Virus record (IMG/VR): IMGVR_UViG_3300032285_001944
Location: 1 to 26,035 of that record
Reading direction: 5' to 3' (one strand)
From: a virus
Length of the DNA: 26,035 nucleotides
Shown here: positions 17,539 through 23,451 of the stretch, in pieces
Numbering within the stretch: the first letter of the stretch is position 1
How the letters are laid out: the number at the start of each line of letters is the position of its first letter
Program-made: the position numbers and the translations under genes
The notes under the pieces: model-generated
What the model was told of the DNA's origin: nothing
What the model saw: the letters and a program-made list of their open reading frames with translations, nothing else
Database searches by the model: none

Positions 17539-18056
17539 TTATTGGTCTTATTGGGTACGCACAGAGCGGTAAAGACACAGTTGCAAAGATTCTTGTAGAT
17601 AACTATGGCTATAAACGTATTGCTTTTGCTGACAAGATTCGTGAATTTTTATATGAAACTGGACCCGACTATATAAAATATCTTGTTGATGAAATAGGTT
17701 GGGAAAAAGCTAAACAAAATAGAACTGTCCGAGAGATGCTACAAACTACAGGCGTTGGGGCTCGTAATGTTTTTGGGGAAGACTTTTGGATTAATCAAGC
17801 TTTTAGTGGACTTAGAGATTTAGATAATGTAGTAATTACTGACGTCCGCTTTACAAATGAAGCAGACTATTTAAAAAGTTATCCAGGCTCACAGCTATGG
17901 CGTGTAGAAAGAAACGGTGTTAAGGCTGTTAATTCTCATGTATCAGAAACACAGTTGGATAACTACCCTTTTATTGACCAGACTTTTGTAAATAATGGGA
18001 CTATTGCAGACCTTGAGGTTTTGGTTTTACGTCGTTTGGCAGGTATGCCAGTATGA
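17535..18056 (+). CDS. Deoxynucleoside monophosphate kinase
   Basis: This 173-residue kinase phosphorylates dNMPs to dNDPs, supplying precursors for phage DNA. It has an N-terminal P-loop GYAQSGKDT (7-15), IAFADKIREFL (about 30-40), a helical lid with NRTVREMLQTTGVGARN (about 63-79) and VVITDVRFTNEAD (about 93-110), all features of the T4 gene 1-type dNMP kinase/AAA_33-like group. The lid region contains Arg residues expected to bind ATP phosphates. The start is ATG at 17535, overlapping the primase stop (ATGA); an upstream GTG at 17520 would only add five residues. Length is a little shorter than T4 gp1 (241). Fits with a phage that degrades host DNA or boosts dNTP supply. Confidence 0.88.
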   Translation: MIIGLIGYAQSGKDTVAKILVDNYGYKRIAFADKIREFLYETGPDYIKYLVDEIGWEKAKQNRTVREMLQTTGVGARNVFGEDFWINQAFSGLRDLDNVVITDVRFTNEADYLKSYPGSQLWRVERNGVKAVNSHVSETQLDNYPFIDQTFVNNGTIADLEVLVLRRLAGMPV

Positions 18057-19642
18057 CCTTCACGGGAACCCTTCTCCCTTATCAGCCTGAGGCCGTAGCT
18101 CGTATGTGCGAGCGCACAAAGATGCTAGTGGCTTATGACCTTGGGTTAGGTAAGACAGTTATCACCATTGCTGCTTTAGAAAAGTTAATGGATGAGGGTA
18201 AAGTTACTGAGCCAGGCCTTATAATTTGTTTATCCTCACTTAAATATCAGTGGGCTAATCAGATTGAGAAATTTACAGATGGAACTTCAAAAGCTTTGGT
18301 TATTGACGGAACGCCAAAGAAACGCTCAGAGCAATACAAAGCCGCTATGGACTGGCGGAATTCGGGGGTTGATTACATCATCCTTAACTATGAGCAAGTT
18401 GTTAACGACTGGAATTTCATCAAAGACTTACCAAGAGGATTTGTTGTCCTTGACGAAGCAACAGCCATCAAGTCTTTCAAATCTAAACGCTCAAAAGCAG
18501 TCAAGCGACTAATTCATACCCCGTACCGTTTTGCTTTAACAGGTACTCCTATTGAAAACGGTAAACCAGAAGAGCTATATAGCATTATGCAGTTTGTAGA
18601 CCCAACTGTATTAAAACGCTTTGACATCTTTGACTCTACCTTTATTGTTCGTAATAGCTGGGGCGGTGTGCAGCATTATCGTAACTTGTCAGTTCTTCAT
18701 GAGACTATGAAAGAGGCATCTGTTCGCAAAGCGCAGAAAGACCCTGACGTTGCGCCATTCTTACCCGATACTATTCATCAAGACCCTATTATGATTACGC
18801 TAGACCGTAAGACTTCTAAGTTATACAACCGAATCTCAATGGACCTTACAACCGACCTAGACGAAGCACAGGCTCTGTTTGGGGCTACCTTTAATATCCT
18901 TACCCACTATGGCGAAGAAGGCTCTAGAGGCGGTCCTGAGGATGAGATGCGCGGAAAGATAATGTCTAAGATTGGCGCTCTAAAGATGCTTTGCTCTCAC
19001 CCAGCGCTACTGACAACTAGCGCGGATAAGTTCACAAAGCTTAACGGCGAAGGTTCAGGGTATGCACACGAGTTAGTAGAACTAGGTTTACTAGAAGGCC
19101 TTACTACATCCCCTAAGTTAGATTATTTAATTCAATATGTAAAAGACTTCTTAGAACAAAACGAACAGAACAAGGTAGTCATATTTGCTACTTATGTAGA
19201 TATGTTAGATAAGATAGCTGAGGCATTAGGCCCAGAACAATGTCGTCTCTACTCAGGCAAGCTAGATGCTAAGACCAAGGAGGATAATAAGGTTGCGTTT
19301 AATACTGACTCTAATATTCGTGTACTCATTAGTTCCGACGCTGGTGGTTACGGGGTTGACCTTCCTGCTGCTAACCTATTGGTTAACTACGACCTCCCAT
19401 GGAGTAGCGGAGCAGCCGTCCAAAGAAATGGGCGAATCAAGCGAGCTTCATCAACATGGAAAACCATTGTAATTCAAGACATCATTGTCAAGGGAAGTAT
19501 TGAAGAGCGCCAATGGGATACCCTTCAGCATAAGTCAGCTGTAGCAAGCGCTGTTATTGATGGAGAAGGTATAGATGAAGACGGCGGAATTGCCATGAAT
19601 GTAGGCAGTCTTAAGCAGTTTTTGAACAGCGCTATCCTATAA
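18053..19642 (+). CDS. SNF2-type DNA helicase/translocase
   Basis: This 529-residue superfamily 2 ATPase shows the SNF2 motif set: a Q-like LLPYQPEAV (7-15), motif I DLGLGKT (29-35), Ia-like IICLSS, motif II LDEAT (133-137), motif III LTGTPIEN (162-169), and in the second lobe motif IV VVIFATYVDML, motif V SSDAGGYGVDL (427-437) and motif VI QRNGRIKR (457-464). It is a bare motor of normal length for phage SNF2 proteins with no nuclease domain on the chain. In phage replication regions such proteins probably assist fork remodelling or recombination (as T4 UvsW does); that role is inference. It is coupled to the dNMP kinase gene by ATGA. Confidence 0.92.
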   Translation: MTFTGTLLPYQPEAVARMCERTKMLVAYDLGLGKTVITIAALEKLMDEGKVTEPGLIICLSSLKYQWANQIEKFTDGTSKALVIDGTPKKRSEQYKAAMDWRNSGVDYIILNYEQVVNDWNFIKDLPRGFVVLDEATAIKSFKSKRSKAVKRLIHTPYRFALTGTPIENGKPEELYSIMQFVDPTVLKRFDIFDSTFIVRNSWGGVQHYRNLSVLHETMKEASVRKAQKDPDVAPFLPDTIHQDPIMITLDRKTSKLYNRISMDLTTDLDEAQALFGATFNILTHYGEEGSRGGPEDEMRGKIMSKIGALKMLCSHPALLTTSADKFTKLNGEGSGYAHELVELGLLEGLTTSPKLDYLIQYVKDFLEQNEQNKVVIFATYVDMLDKIAEALGPEQCRLYSGKLDAKTKEDNKVAFNTDSNIRVLISSDAGGYGVDLPAANLLVNYDLPWSSGAAVQRNGRIKRASSTWKTIVIQDIIVKGSIEERQWDTLQHKSAVASAVIDGEGIDEDGGIAMNVGSLKQFLNSAIL

Positions 19643-19651
19643 AATTGGAGT

Positions 19652-19798
19652 ATGCCTAACGCACCTAAGACGCCAACGCGCACAATACGGGTTTCTGATA
19701 CCCTTTGGAAAGCTGCTCAGGCTAAGGCTGCCCTTGAAGGGGTCAGCATTACCAGCGTGGTAATCGCAGCCCTAGAGGACTATTTGACAAAGGAATAG
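19652..19798 (+). CDS. Ribbon-helix-helix DNA-binding protein (48 aa)
   Basis: This short gene encodes 48 residues with the layout of a CopG/Arc-like ribbon-helix-helix regulator: a basic beta strand (TPTRTIRVSD, about 8-16), a first helix (LWKAAQAKAALEG, 18-30) and a second (SITSVVIAALEDYLTKE, 32-48), the turn between them at GVSI. Such proteins dimerise and bind short palindromes with the strand. It starts ten bases after the SNF2 stop; a GGAG lies only one base before the ATG, so expression may depend on re-initiation after the upstream gene. A palindrome overlapping the next promoter (19795-19821) begins at its stop codon and is a natural candidate target. Too short for most gene finders but compositionally convincing. 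Confidence 0.75.
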   Translation: MPNAPKTPTRTIRVSDTLWKAAQAKAALEGVSITSVVIAALEDYLTKE

Positions 19799-19812
19799 AG
19801 CGGTATTAGATT
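19784..19812 (+). promoter_or_regulatory. Sigma-A-type promoter
   Basis: A perfect -35 TTGACA (19784-19789) and, after 17 bases, TAGATT (19807-19812) form a good housekeeping promoter; the sequence around the -10 box (TATTAGATT) resembles the TATTAGACT of actinobacterial rRNA promoters. Predicted start of transcription is near 19819. The -35 lies in the last codons of the ribbon-helix-helix gene. It should drive the genes from 19837 on. Confidence 0.65.
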
Positions 19813-19821
19813 CTGCTCTAT
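19795..19821. promoter_or_regulatory. Inverted repeat over the -10 box (operator candidate)
   Basis: ATAGAGC (19795-19801) and GCTCTAT (19815-19821) form a perfect 7-base inverted repeat spaced by 13 bases that brackets the -10 element. A protein bound here would block the promoter. The small ribbon-helix-helix protein encoded immediately upstream is the obvious candidate. In RNA it would be only a weak hairpin. Confidence 0.5.
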
Positions 19822-19836
19822 AACAGGGGAGAATAT

Positions 19837-20232
19837 ATGGATATCAAATCTATAGCACGTCAGTACTTAAGCCTTAAAGATGAGGCTGCTTTACTTACTA
19901 ATCGCACTAACCAACTTAAAGAACAGCTGCTTGAGGCTGTTGAAAAAGAAGAGTTTGACGATAAAGGTCACAAAAGGCTCACTCTTCAAGATGACATCAA
20001 AGGCCAAATAACTCTTACAAAACAGCGCCGTGTATCTAAAAACTTAGATATGAGTGTTGCCGAAGACCTACTTACATCTAAAGGTATTAAAGATAAATGC
20101 CTTAAGACAATTTCAGTATTAGATGAATCAGCAATCATGGCAGCTTTTTACGAAGGTCTTCTTACTGAAGCAGATATTGATGCTATGTTTCCAGCTAAAG
20201 TTACTTATGCATTTTTGGTTGATAATAAGTGA
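19837..20232 (+). CDS. Hypothetical protein with N-terminal coiled coil
   Basis: I do not recognise this 131-residue protein. It begins with a coiled-coil-like helix (IARQYLSLKDEAALLTNRTNQLKEQLLEAVEKEE, about 5-38), followed by a beta hairpin-like stretch (HKRLTLQDDIKGQITLTKQRRVSKNLD) and a helical end (DESAIMAAFYEGLLTEADIDAMF). It is charged and soluble, with no cysteine motif and no P-loop. The N-terminal helix and strands recall phage proteins that bind nucleic acids or nucleases, but that is weak. It is the first gene after the promoter and palindrome, with an AGGGGAGA ribosome site, and overlaps the MerR-like gene by four bases (GTGA). Being first in this transcript it may be an early-expressed accessory factor. 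Confidence 0.72.
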   Translation: MDIKSIARQYLSLKDEAALLTNRTNQLKEQLLEAVEKEEFDDKGHKRLTLQDDIKGQITLTKQRRVSKNLDMSVAEDLLTSKGIKDKCLKTISVLDESAIMAAFYEGLLTEADIDAMFPAKVTYAFLVDNK

Positions 20233-20696
20233 CAGATGATTTAATAGATTCAATGTTTAGCGACGTTGACCAATACTATCCCGGTAGTAAACGTAAACGT
20301 AAACCAGTAGTGGCTAAGAAGCCCGAGGTGGAGCTTGACCTTAATTGGGATGCAAAACCTATAAAGAAAACATTACCCAATGGCAGAGACCTTGAAATGT
20401 TTACTATTGGCGCTATAGCAGCGGCGTTAGGTAGACCTGTAATAACTCTACGTGCCTGGATTAAAGAGGGCTACCTACCCGCTGCACCTTATAGACTTCC
20501 TTCTACAAAAGACGTAAACGGAAAAGAACACCAAGGGCGTAGATTATATTCACGCGCCATGGTCGAAAGAGTTGTGGAGATACTACGTACGGCTGGACTT
20601 CTTGAAATAAAGCGTATAGAGTGGTCTTTACACCGGCAGGTCAGCATTGACATTGCCGAGGCATGGACGCAAATCCGTGCAGATGAAACCAAATAA
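20229..20696 (+). CDS. MerR-like winged helix DNA-binding protein
   Basis: This 155-residue protein has a MerR/excisionase-type domain: MFTIGAIAAALGRPVITLRAWIKEG (57-81), YLPAAPYRLP (82-91) and RRLYSRAMVERVVEIL (about 103-118), where the pattern of a helix-turn-helix followed by a Tyr-Leu wing and RxYSxxxVexv is diagnostic. Upstream is a basic, Lys/Arg/Pro-rich segment (PGSKRKRKPVVAKKP, 18-32) that may touch DNA. It has no C-terminal effector-binding domain. The start is GTG at 20229, sharing GTGA with the upstream stop. It could be a transcription regulator of the replication or late genes, or a DNA architectural protein; which one is not visible. No integrase is nearby, so excisionase is less likely. 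Confidence 0.78.
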   Translation: MTDDLIDSMFSDVDQYYPGSKRKRKPVVAKKPEVELDLNWDAKPIKKTLPNGRDLEMFTIGAIAAALGRPVITLRAWIKEGYLPAAPYRLPSTKDVNGKEHQGRRLYSRAMVERVVEILRTAGLLEIKRIEWSLHRQVSIDIAEAWTQIRADETK

Positions 20697-20723
20697 AACA
20701 ACAACATATAAAGGATGATACAA

Positions 20724-21392
20724 ATGTCTGTAAATAGAACAGATGAATATATGCCAGAGCAAGATGAATTTGCTATGACCGATGCACCAATCACAGCTCG
20801 TCCACCACAGGCTACTGCAAGCACTGCAGTTGCATCAGGTTGGGACGCAGCTAATAAAGTAACTACTGGTACATACCCAACTGATTTTAAGTTTGGTGAT
20901 ACCCCTCAAATTATTAAGTTCATTGACCCAAGCGGCCCATTTGCCGTTTATCGCCAACACTTCTTGTCACAAAAGACAAGCGGACAGCGCTCGTATATCT
21001 CATTGGGTGCTAATGACCCATTGTGTGTAAAGCTTGGCAGCAAGCCAGAGCTAAAGCGCGCATTCAGCATTATCAATTTGAGTGCTGTTGGCGGTCCACG
21101 CCGTGAACGACTTATTGCATCCCCTCGTTTGTATGATGCGCTTCATGCAGCAGAGTTTTCACCTCAAGGCCCATTAACTAAAAACTACTGGGCTATCTCA
21201 CGTTCAGGAAAGATGCAGACAACCATGTATCATCTTAACGCAGTTAAGTCTCGCGACCTCGTAGAGGACTGGGGCATGACAGATATTGAGGCTATTGAAA
21301 AGTCACTTGCTGACATTCAGCCATTTGTAAGTTCCGACCTTAAGGAACCAACTTGGGAAGAGCTCGAAGCTGTTGCAGCTTCACTGCTCTAG
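20724..21392 (+). CDS. Probable single-stranded DNA-binding protein
   Basis: This 222-residue protein is not a recognisable OB-fold SSB, but its context and design suggest one. After a disordered N-terminus (about 1-35) comes YPTDFKFGDTPQIIKFIDPSGPFAVYRQHF (about 42-71), then SYISLGANDPLCVKLGSKPELKRAF, FSIINLSAVG and YWAISRSGKMQTTMYHLN, alternating strands rich in aromatics as in phage SSBs that act with a PolA-type polymerase. It ends in an acidic helical tail (SSDLKEPTWEELEAVAASLL), where SSBs carry their protein-binding tail. The start is ATG at 20724, eight bases after AAGGA (20711-20715); the ATG at 20715 overlaps that site and is not used. No other SSB is in the window. Function is inference. 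Confidence 0.6.
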   Translation: MSVNRTDEYMPEQDEFAMTDAPITARPPQATASTAVASGWDAANKVTTGTYPTDFKFGDTPQIIKFIDPSGPFAVYRQHFLSQKTSGQRSYISLGANDPLCVKLGSKPELKRAFSIINLSAVGGPRRERLIASPRLYDALHAAEFSPQGPLTKNYWAISRSGKMQTTMYHLNAVKSRDLVEDWGMTDIEAIEKSLADIQPFVSSDLKEPTWEELEAVAASLL

Positions 21393-21402
21393 CAAATAGA
21401 CC

Positions 21403-21454
21403 GCTGGAGGGTCAGGCGCTACATCCCCTGCCCCTGGCTCTCCAGCCTTATTTT
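21403..21454 (+). terminator. Terminator-like hairpin before the polymerase gene
   Basis: GCTGGAGGGTCAGG (21403-21416) pairs with CCTGGCTCTCCAGC (21433-21446) in a continuous 14-base-pair stem (two G-U pairs) with a 16-base loop, followed by CTTATTTT (21447-21454). This has the form of an intrinsic terminator and lies right after the SSB-like gene. It may limit read-through from a strongly expressed SSB into the polymerase. The polymerase ribosome site follows within ten bases, so it could also affect that start. Confidence 0.6.
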
Positions 21455-21465
21455 GGGGATACAAC

Positions 21466-23451
21466 TTGAATATTATTTTTACCAAAGAGCAGCTTGATGA
21501 GATGGTTGCTTATTACTTACAACAAGACGCATTTGCTTTTGACGTAGAAACCGTCGGCACTCATAGAGGTACTCCTGCGGTTAACGAAGTACTTTGGATA
21601 TCATTTGCTACACATGGCCGTGGAGATGTTATTCCTATGGGTCATCCAAACGGAGACTTTGTAGAGTTAATACGACCACTTACAGGTGTTGGTCAGAAAC
21701 GCTTAGATGCAGGTTTGCCTATTAGAGATACTGATTATTCTTCTGATGATAAAAAAGCTACTAAGGTGTTTACCCCAGGCCCTGAGCAACTGTTCCCTGC
21801 AGAAGTGTTTGAGGCTCTTAAGCCATTGATGTTTCATCCAAGCATTCTTAAGGTTGGCCATAACTTAGGGTTTGACCTTAGCTCTGTAGCAAAGTATTAC
21901 GACAATACCCCACCATGCCAACCATATTTTGACACGCTTATGGCATCTTTTTTATATGACAATAAGAACCGCGGAAAGCTTGGTCTAGACGATTGTTTGC
22001 AGCGCGAACTAGGTTTCAGCATGCAAAAAGGCATTGGCCATAAAGTAGAGGACTACTCGTTTGATGAGGTAGCTAAGTATGCTTATCTTGATGCCAAGTA
22101 CACCTTCTTGCTATGGAAGGTTCTTGTAGAAAAACTAGAAGCATCAGACGTTGTTCGAGTTATGAAGCTTGAGATGGATGTACTAGAGGTTCTTTGCTAT
22201 ATGAAGTTAGAAGGAACTTATATTGATATTGAGTCTTTAAAGTCACTCAACGTTAGATTAGAGGCTGATATTGAAACAGCAAAAGCCCACGCTTACAGCG
22301 TTGTTGGGCGGGTATTTAATATGAACTCAAATAGCGAAAAACAATACTTGCTATATGGCCCAAAAGAAGAAGGATGTAGAGGCCTGAAGGTTAGCCAGCT
22401 TACTGGAACAGGTCAGAAGAACGCTGTCATGTTGGGAGAAGAAGGCCTTACCCATAAAGATTATTCAGTTAACGCAGCCGCTTTGGAAGAACTTCGTTCA
22501 AAAGATGAGTTTGTAGACGCGCTATTAACCTACTCTGACCTTAATAAATTGCAGAGTACTTATGTCATTCCTTACTTGGGTGGCGAGGTTGTTAAAACTG
22601 TTAACGGTAAGTCTAAGATTGAAATTAGAGATAGTATGCTAGTCAACGGTAAGTTGTATGCAGATTTTATTCAGTGGGGCGCGGAGACCGGTCGTTTCTC
22701 TAGCCGAAACCCTAATTTGCAGAACATTCCAAACCCAGAGGCTAGTGAGAATGGTAAAGCCATTCGTAATTTATTTATTGCTCCTGAGGGTCATAAGTTA
22801 ATCGTTGCCGACTATTCACAGATTGAGCCACGTGTTATTGCCGCAATGTCTAAAGACCCAATTATGATGGATAACTATCTTACTGGCGGTGACCTTTACA
22901 CTACCGTAGGTAACACCGTGGGAGTAGACCGCAAAGCCGGTAAGGTTTTAGTTCTTGCTATGGCATACGGTGTAGGTCCAGATAAGATTTCAAGTCAGAT
23001 TGGCTGCACAGTTCAAGAGGCTAAGGCGCTCTTAAACGCTTTTGCTGAGAAGTTTCCTTCTGTGTCTAAATACAAACAAACAGTTGTAGGAGTATCTCGC
23101 AAGAAAGGCTATGTTACTACTATCATGGGCCGACGCCGTTACTTGCCAGACATTAACTCTAGAGTAATGAAGTTCAGGGCTAGCTCTGAGCGTCAAGCCT
23201 TTAATACCCGTATTCAAGGCAGTGCAGCAGACATTATTAAGCTTGCTATGATTAGGGCCTACGAGAGGCTACCAAAGGAGGCAAAGTTGATTCTTACAGT
23301 GCACGACGAACTTGTAACAATTGCCCCAGACCATCTTGTTGAACAAGCTAAAGAAGCCATTCGTGATGCTATGGAAGGTATTGACCTTCTGCCTATCCCA
23401 CTTATTTCTGATATTAACGTAGTTCAGCGTTGGGGAGAGGGCCACAAGTGA
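21466..23451 (+). CDS. DNA polymerase I family (PolA) with 3'-5' exonuclease
   Basis: This 661-residue replicative polymerase has an N-terminal DEDDy proofreading exonuclease: FDVET (D26, E28), VGHNLGFD (130-137; D137) and YAYLDAKY (Y205, D209). The polymerase part has motif A VADYSQIEPR (447-456; D449), motif B R489-xxx-K493-xxx-L497-xxx-Y501, and motif C LTVHDEL (610-616; D614). There is no 5'-3' exonuclease. Position 497 (equal to Phe762 of E. coli Pol I) is leucine. A thioredoxin-binding insertion as in T7 is not evident. The start is TTG at 21466 with GGGGAT just upstream, an unusual weak start behind a hairpin, so yield may be limited. It overlaps the next gene by four bases (GTGA). Confidence 0.95.
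   Translation: MNIIFTKEQLDEMVAYYLQQDAFAFDVETVGTHRGTPAVNEVLWISFATHGRGDVIPMGHPNGDFVELIRPLTGVGQKRLDAGLPIRDTDYSSDDKKATKVFTPGPEQLFPAEVFEALKPLMFHPSILKVGHNLGFDLSSVAKYYDNTPPCQPYFDTLMASFLYDNKNRGKLGLDDCLQRELGFSMQKGIGHKVEDYSFDEVAKYAYLDAKYTFLLWKVLVEKLEASDVVRVMKLEMDVLEVLCYMKLEGTYIDIESLKSLNVRLEADIETAKAHAYSVVGRVFNMNSNSEKQYLLYGPKEEGCRGLKVSQLTGTGQKNAVMLGEEGLTHKDYSVNAAALEELRSKDEFVDALLTYSDLNKLQSTYVIPYLGGEVVKTVNGKSKIEIRDSMLVNGKLYADFIQWGAETGRFSSRNPNLQNIPNPEASENGKAIRNLFIAPEGHKLIVADYSQIEPRVIAAMSKDPIMMDNYLTGGDLYTTVGNTVGVDRKAGKVLVLAMAYGVGPDKISSQIGCTVQEAKALLNAFAEKFPSVSKYKQTVVGVSRKKGYVTTIMGRRRYLPDINSRVMKFRASSERQAFNTRIQGSAADIIKLAMIRAYERLPKEAKLILTVHDELVTIAPDHLVEQAKEAIRDAMEGIDLLPIPLISDINVVQRWGEGHK

Follow-up and report, generated by a model that had tools for sequence, protein, structure and literature searches.

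Between a set of helicase genes and a set of polymerase and RecA genes, a 26-kb viral contig carries a very small gene for a ribbon-helix-helix (RHH) protein, a promoter at the end of that gene, and a palindrome that brackets the −10 box of the promoter. How is the second set of genes brought into expression, and what part do the small regulator and the palindrome play in it? A sequence-only reading of this DNA had proposed that the RHH protein binds the palindrome as its operator and times the second operon. The comparison with related loci described here points instead to a junction with two promoters in tandem, in an actinobacterial phage, at which each gene would be translated only from RNA begun at its own promoter; we hold this model, which is built from sequence comparison and predicted folding, to be rather probable.

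The window, by which we mean the whole stretch of 26,035 nucleotides that was analysed, runs from tail genes through a helicase loader, a DnaB-type helicase, a primase and an SNF2 helicase to the RHH gene, after which come the coiled-coil and HTH genes, PolA, a RecA-like gene and WhiB; the labels DnaB, primase and RecA were assigned by reading the translations. The presence of WhiB and the closest named relatives of the RHH protein (in Gordonia, Mycobacterium and Microbacterium phages, at 37–44% identity) make an actinobacterium the probable host. The surroundings first described, a helicase set before the regulator and a polymerase/RecA set after it, hold good, with the exception of the label SSB for the gene at 20715–21392, which had no match in Pfam, PHROG or NCBIfam. 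Rfam gave no match over 18000–22000, no cultured phage carrying the same locus was found, and the coiled-coil protein had no match in the phage collection; in Gordonia and Mycobacterium phages, Arc-like homologues lie in different gene surroundings. The features of the junction that the argument needs first, with P1 and P2 denoting the promoters before the RHH gene and at its end, are as follows.

18053–19642, + strand: SNF2-type helicase gene, the final gene of the upstream set (Pfam SNF2-rel_dom, E 4e-36)
19640–19645, + strand: P1 −10 box TAAAAT, exactly 6 nt 5′ of the RHH ATG (spacing conserved)
19652–19798, + strand: RHH protein, 48 aa, phrog_6506, Arc-like (ORF, profile, predicted fold)
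19784–19789, + strand: P2 −35 box TTGACA, within RHH codons 45–46 (DNA conserved across RHH frames)
19807–19812, + strand: P2 −10 box TAGATT, of the TANNTT class, after a spacer of 17 (sequence, lineage comparison)
19819, + strand: putative P2 transcription start, the 7th base after the −10 box (spacing analogy)
19837–20232, + strand: coiled-coil protein, 131 aa, first gene of the P2 operon (family search)
20229–20696, + strand: MerR/HTH-like protein (Pfam HTH_17, E 4e-4, below the cut-off; sequence)

The start of the MerR/HTH-like gene overlaps the stop of the coiled-coil gene (20229 versus 20232), and translation of the two is likely coupled.

The regulator gene and its promoter

The identification of the small gene as an RHH gene is borne out by its reading frame, by its profile match (phrog_6506, E 3e-16) and by its predicted structure. 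The AF2 monomer (pLDDT 89) has the beta-alpha-alpha form of the class, an extended N-terminal strand followed by two helices, and its best matches in the PDB are CopG (1b01, TM 0.74) and Arc (1par, TM 0.76), with a probability of 0.99 and E values of only 0.07–0.1. Among solved proteins omega comes closest in sequence, a weak match (E 0.024) whose T-V-R-V ribbon resembles the T-I-R-V of the phage protein. The protein is thus like CopG and Arc in fold and unlike Arc, CopG and omega in the weakness of any sequence match and in its family-specific N-terminus, MPNAPKTP, a nearly invariant trait of the phage RHH proteins. The same eight residues occur in distant Streptomyces proteins that are otherwise different (L190, L196), and a search of bacterial genomes for the RHH protein returned only these and short cyanobacterial matches. 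At least 550 relatives are found in viral contigs, where the gene is very common, and their ribbon, TRTIRV, is almost invariant. The RHH gene is present in the available upstream sequence of 76 of the 79 loci found with the coiled-coil family, which supports a working link between the two. A toxin-antitoxin reading was set aside, as no toxin partner was seen beside the gene.

Directly before the RHH gene lies a promoter that was overlooked in the sequence-only reading. Of 51 lineages, 50 have a TANNNT element whose distance to the RHH ATG is exactly 6 nt, and none has a Shine-Dalgarno (SD) sequence; this is the arrangement of a leaderless gene, with the −10 box placed for a start at the ATG itself. 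In the window, the stop codon of the helicase gene (TAA, 19640–19642) forms the first half of this box. The spacing is kept whatever lies upstream, be it the helicase (which a motif check recognised in 36 of 45) or, in some other lineages, tRNA genes. P1 has the same form as the leaderless promoters of mycobacteria, in which TANNNT is centred 7–12 bp before the start, a 5′ leader is frequently missing and the −35 is weak or absent (PMC3898074); unlike those host genes, a single phage gene here holds an exact 6-nt spacing over about 50 lineages. The P1 transcript would accordingly begin at A19652, the first base of the ATG, and since the RHH mRNA would be leaderless, RHH protein should not be made from longer RNAs that come out of the helicase operon.

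Two side observations concern the DNA just before P1. In L043, L080, L081, L122, L130, L132 and L179 it closely follows the end of phage tRNA genes (for Asn, Gly, Gln or others). In L016, L022, L042, L043 and L045 the dyad ACCCAAC-N7-GTTGGGT occupies the stretch from about 38 to about 17 bases ahead of the RHH start; it may serve as an operator or belong to a terminator, and was rejected as a shared operator at P1 on account of its confinement to one clade.

The second promoter and the search for an operator

From one sequence, P2 does not exceed chance, with 15 promoter-like sites in the contig against 25 ± 5 in shuffles, and of the promoter described as a perfect TTGACA-17-TAGATT, the −35 box (6/6) and the spacing stand, while the −10 box matches at only 4/6. 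Across lineages, the claim of a genuine second promoter between the two gene sets is upheld: TTGACA or TTGTCA (or a one-base variant) is found 17–18 bases before TANNNT in 51 of 58 downstream lineages. Its position ranges from −23 to +29 relative to the RHH end, in several reading frames, and where the hexamer lies inside the RHH gene it encodes Leu-Thr in some lineages and (Leu/Val)-Asp in others, so it is the DNA that is conserved and not the protein tail. In lineages with an extra small ORF after the RHH gene, P2 lies further on, still ahead of the coiled-coil gene. This ORF, which is basic (M.KHHDKI.KAL.QR...GYKKPGSMNKKKTGYR), was seen between the RHH gene and P2 in L015, L017, L043, L055, L080 and L081.

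In some lineages the P2 gene is itself leaderless, with its ATG exactly 6 nt after the −10 box. Because P1 and these leaderless P2 genes share that geometry, the P2 start was placed at the 7th base after the −10 box, or about 19819 in the window. In four lineages (L113, L117, L124, L132) the P2 leader is longer, about 46 nt, and contains two inner hairpins (GCTAA..TTAGC and CCCCC..GGGGG) enclosed by a TGTAC..GTACA stem adjoining the SD.

Does the RHH protein act on either promoter? It is possible, with the balance somewhat against it, that the protein regulates P2, P1 or both through a site other than the palindrome, perhaps over the −35 box, whose TTGACA is near-palindromic (TTG-A-CAA); such regulation would be compatible with the hairpin described below. 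The protein is a predicted DNA binder that accompanies nearly every coiled-coil locus, and the −35 hexamer is TTGACA without change in most lineages and TTGTCA in a few. However, recognition by sigma already accounts for TTGACA, and no conserved motif besides the promoter hexamers was found at P1 or P2 across lineages: k-mer, dyad and direct-repeat searches for an operator shared by the two promoters surfaced only those hexamers, the SD, and helicase and RHH codons. Within the RHH gene, synonymous choice is unusually narrow across lineages at codons 2–5 (19655–19666) and 35 (19754–19756), such that Ala4 is only GCA or GCG and Ser35 nearly always AGC; this constraint was judged insufficient to define an operator.

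Predicted pairing at the ribosome-binding site and the palindrome

As the DNA from P1 to the next gene shows no evident terminator, P1 transcripts should continue through P2. What would such a read-through RNA do? Just 5′ of the P2 start lie bases complementary to the coiled-coil gene's SD, a second element that was overlooked before, and the hairpin that they can form, H2, has the following parts.

19810–19834, + strand: lock hairpin H2, with 5′ arm ATTCTgCTCT (19810–19819) and 3′ arm AGGGgAGAAT (19825–19834) over the SD (folding, covariation)
19825–19831, + strand: SD AGGGGAG of the coiled-coil gene (sequence)

In the model that we favour, P1 would yield the leaderless RHH mRNA and P2 would drive the coiled-coil/HTH/polymerase/RecA set. 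In read-through RNA the left arm would pair with the SD and hide it; RNA begun at P2 would lack that arm and leave the SD open, so that the coiled-coil gene would be made only when P2 itself fires.

The pairing is widespread and varied in sequence. Among 44 lineages with a leader at P2, 41 have a predicted minimum-energy stem over the SD that uses left-arm bases 5′ of +1, formed by 37 different arms, and three have no such stem; many of the arms match over 7–12 bp, reaching beyond the SD core. Computed for RNA free of ribosomes on the RHH frame, the mean predicted openness of the SD is 0.209–0.22 in read-through RNA, 0.353 when arms are swapped among lineages and 0.570 in P2 RNA. Not one of 20,000 permutations equalled the natural pairing, and the same count (0/20,000) was obtained after thinning to below 70% protein identity (n = 23); it was 10/20,000 below 60% (n = 14) and 550/20,000 below 50%, where the test is weak with only 6 lineages. 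Bases −36 to −19 are not responsible for the closure (openness 0.464), and SD genes elsewhere in the same loci have a higher openness (0.454 versus 0.203, P = 1.6e-8). In 14 further lineages, the natural RNA was again more closed than P2 RNA (0.275 versus 0.578, with 13 of the 14 lower); here the swap test was significant by energy (66/20,000) and not significant on SD openness alone (3664/20,000), most of these arms being C-rich. Read-through RNA is the more closed form in 55 of the 58 lineages taken together.

Two other explanations of this complementarity have to be weighed. The hairpin might lie within the P2 RNA itself, as a 5′ stabiliser or the site of an autoregulator, with no lock on read-through RNA. 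The P2 start was placed by analogy, a start 3–6 nt further upstream would put the hairpin into P2 RNA too, and L113 and L124 do have longer structured leaders; yet the distance from −10 to ATG is exactly 6 nt both at P1 and at the leaderless P2 genes, and bases 5′ of the putative +1 account for 68% of the SD pairing, the partners peaking at −3 to +1, which makes this explanation unlikely. It is less likely again that the complementarity arises incidentally, as a by-product of G-rich SDs meeting C-rich sequence ahead of the start. Swapped arms do reduce SD openness relative to P2 RNA, as a by-product would predict, but a lineage's own arm outperforms the arms of others in the permutations above, and the 37 arms are distinct, many with matches that extend past the SD core.

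The lock hairpin shares bases with the palindrome, here called H1.

19795–19821, + strand: palindrome H1, arms 19795–19801 and 19815–19821, 9 bp as RNA with inner pairs (sequence, folding)

The palindrome exists as it was described, ATAGAGC at 19795–19801 and GCTCTAT at 19815–19821. Judged from this sequence alone it does not stand out: perfect 7-base inverted repeats with gaps of 3–20 number 54 in the contig against 33 ± 8 expected, and the chance of one in a 61-nt stretch is P about 0.03. H1 and H2 compete for the same left-arm bases, and H1 is the stronger of the two when each is folded alone (−10.6 versus −8.1 kcal/mol). In the full P1 RNA of the window, the prediction gives 0.87 for H1, 0.12 for the lock (the 19816–19828 series) and an SD that is 0.66 open; because this RNA favours H1, the lock may be weakened in this contig. 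A ribosome finishing the RHH gene would cover the left arm of H1 and favour H2.

From this geometry a true switch can be imagined in the window lineage, in which a ribosome at the RHH stop would prevent H1, so that H2 closes the SD, while in the absence of RHH translation H1 would take shape and free the SD. The arms are mutually exclusive, the RHH stop (TAG, 19796–19798) lies inside the left arm of H1, and predicted SD openness is 0.48 with H1 and 0.18 with H1 blocked. Against this, H1 is not conserved, and the minimum-energy fold contains H2 and not H1 in L002, L003, L005 and L013; we regard the switch as quite improbable.

The fate of the palindrome in relatives is what decides its meaning. 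It is perfect only in the window and in three near-identical contigs (L002–L004), is 6/7 in L005–L007 and 5/7 in L013, where the RHH protein is 89–90% identical, and is absent in L008–L012 (79% identity) and in all other relatives. The changes in L005–L007 and L013 keep G-U pairs and break the DNA symmetry. Since the RHH ribbon is almost invariant, a true operator should persist in these relatives; its loss where both the RHH gene and P2 are kept is an outcome that the sequence-only reading had itself named as counting against it. The idea that ATAGAGC-N13-GCTCTAT is an RHH operator over the P2 −10 box that times the second operon has in its favour the dyad symmetry centred on that box, the RHH fold and the position of the gene, and is nevertheless highly improbable given the decay of the palindrome, its broken symmetry in close relatives and its single copy in the contig, where a check for further copies found none at up to 2 mismatches. 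By this comparison the palindrome is a hairpin of recent origin, peculiar to its lineage and in competition with the lock hairpin, and not a conserved operator.

Known systems and wider meaning

A precedent for the lock is found in phage T4, where an account of gene e (and of soc, 49 and I-TevI) describes an SD hidden in a helix of the longer, early read-through RNA, and late promoters that lie just 5′ of the ribosome site and make RNA without the 5′ part of the inhibitory helix (PMC3014915). The junction agrees with this logic in every feature that sequence can test: the SD lies in a helix in the longer RNA (as predicted for 41 of 44 lineages, and weakened in the window by H1), and the promoter is sited so that its own RNA would miss most of the pairing partners; the effect on translation is a prediction. 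It differs from T4 in using a vegetative TTGACA/TANNNT promoter where T4 uses a late one, in that the gene under the putative lock heads a replication operon, and in that some relatives are leaderless instead. The transposase genes of IS10 and IS50 are subject to fold-back inhibition, in which the ribosome site is hidden in transcripts that come in from outside and not in those begun at the element's own promoter. The phage junction would work likewise, with incoming RNA closed and own-promoter RNA open; the insertion sequences differ in that their arms come from the terminal repeat of the element, and they have no sequence relation to the junction.

A limited literature search found no description of such a lock in actinobacterial phages, and the unusual part is the alternation between lock and leaderless start. 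The leaderless P2 gene of some lineages would be a second route to the same end. It is a little short of an even chance, in our estimate, that in a large clade of uncultured actinobacterial phages the genes at this junction are translation-competent only in RNA from their own promoters, by way of either a leaderless start or a promoter-end hairpin, the two being interchangeable. In that reading, the firing of a promoter would gate translation as well as transcription in a dense genome without terminators.

The locus also carries a caution, in that a palindrome may catch the eye at a promoter and yet be an accident of one lineage, while the conserved element adjoining it is invisible in a single sequence. 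If the model is true, a sequence rule follows from it, namely that promoter-gated genes in other compact genomes would be found by the presence of anti-SD bases around positions −6 to −1 relative to an internal promoter, and the device of T4 gene e, known from few genes, would be standard and strongly selected in a very abundant group of phages.
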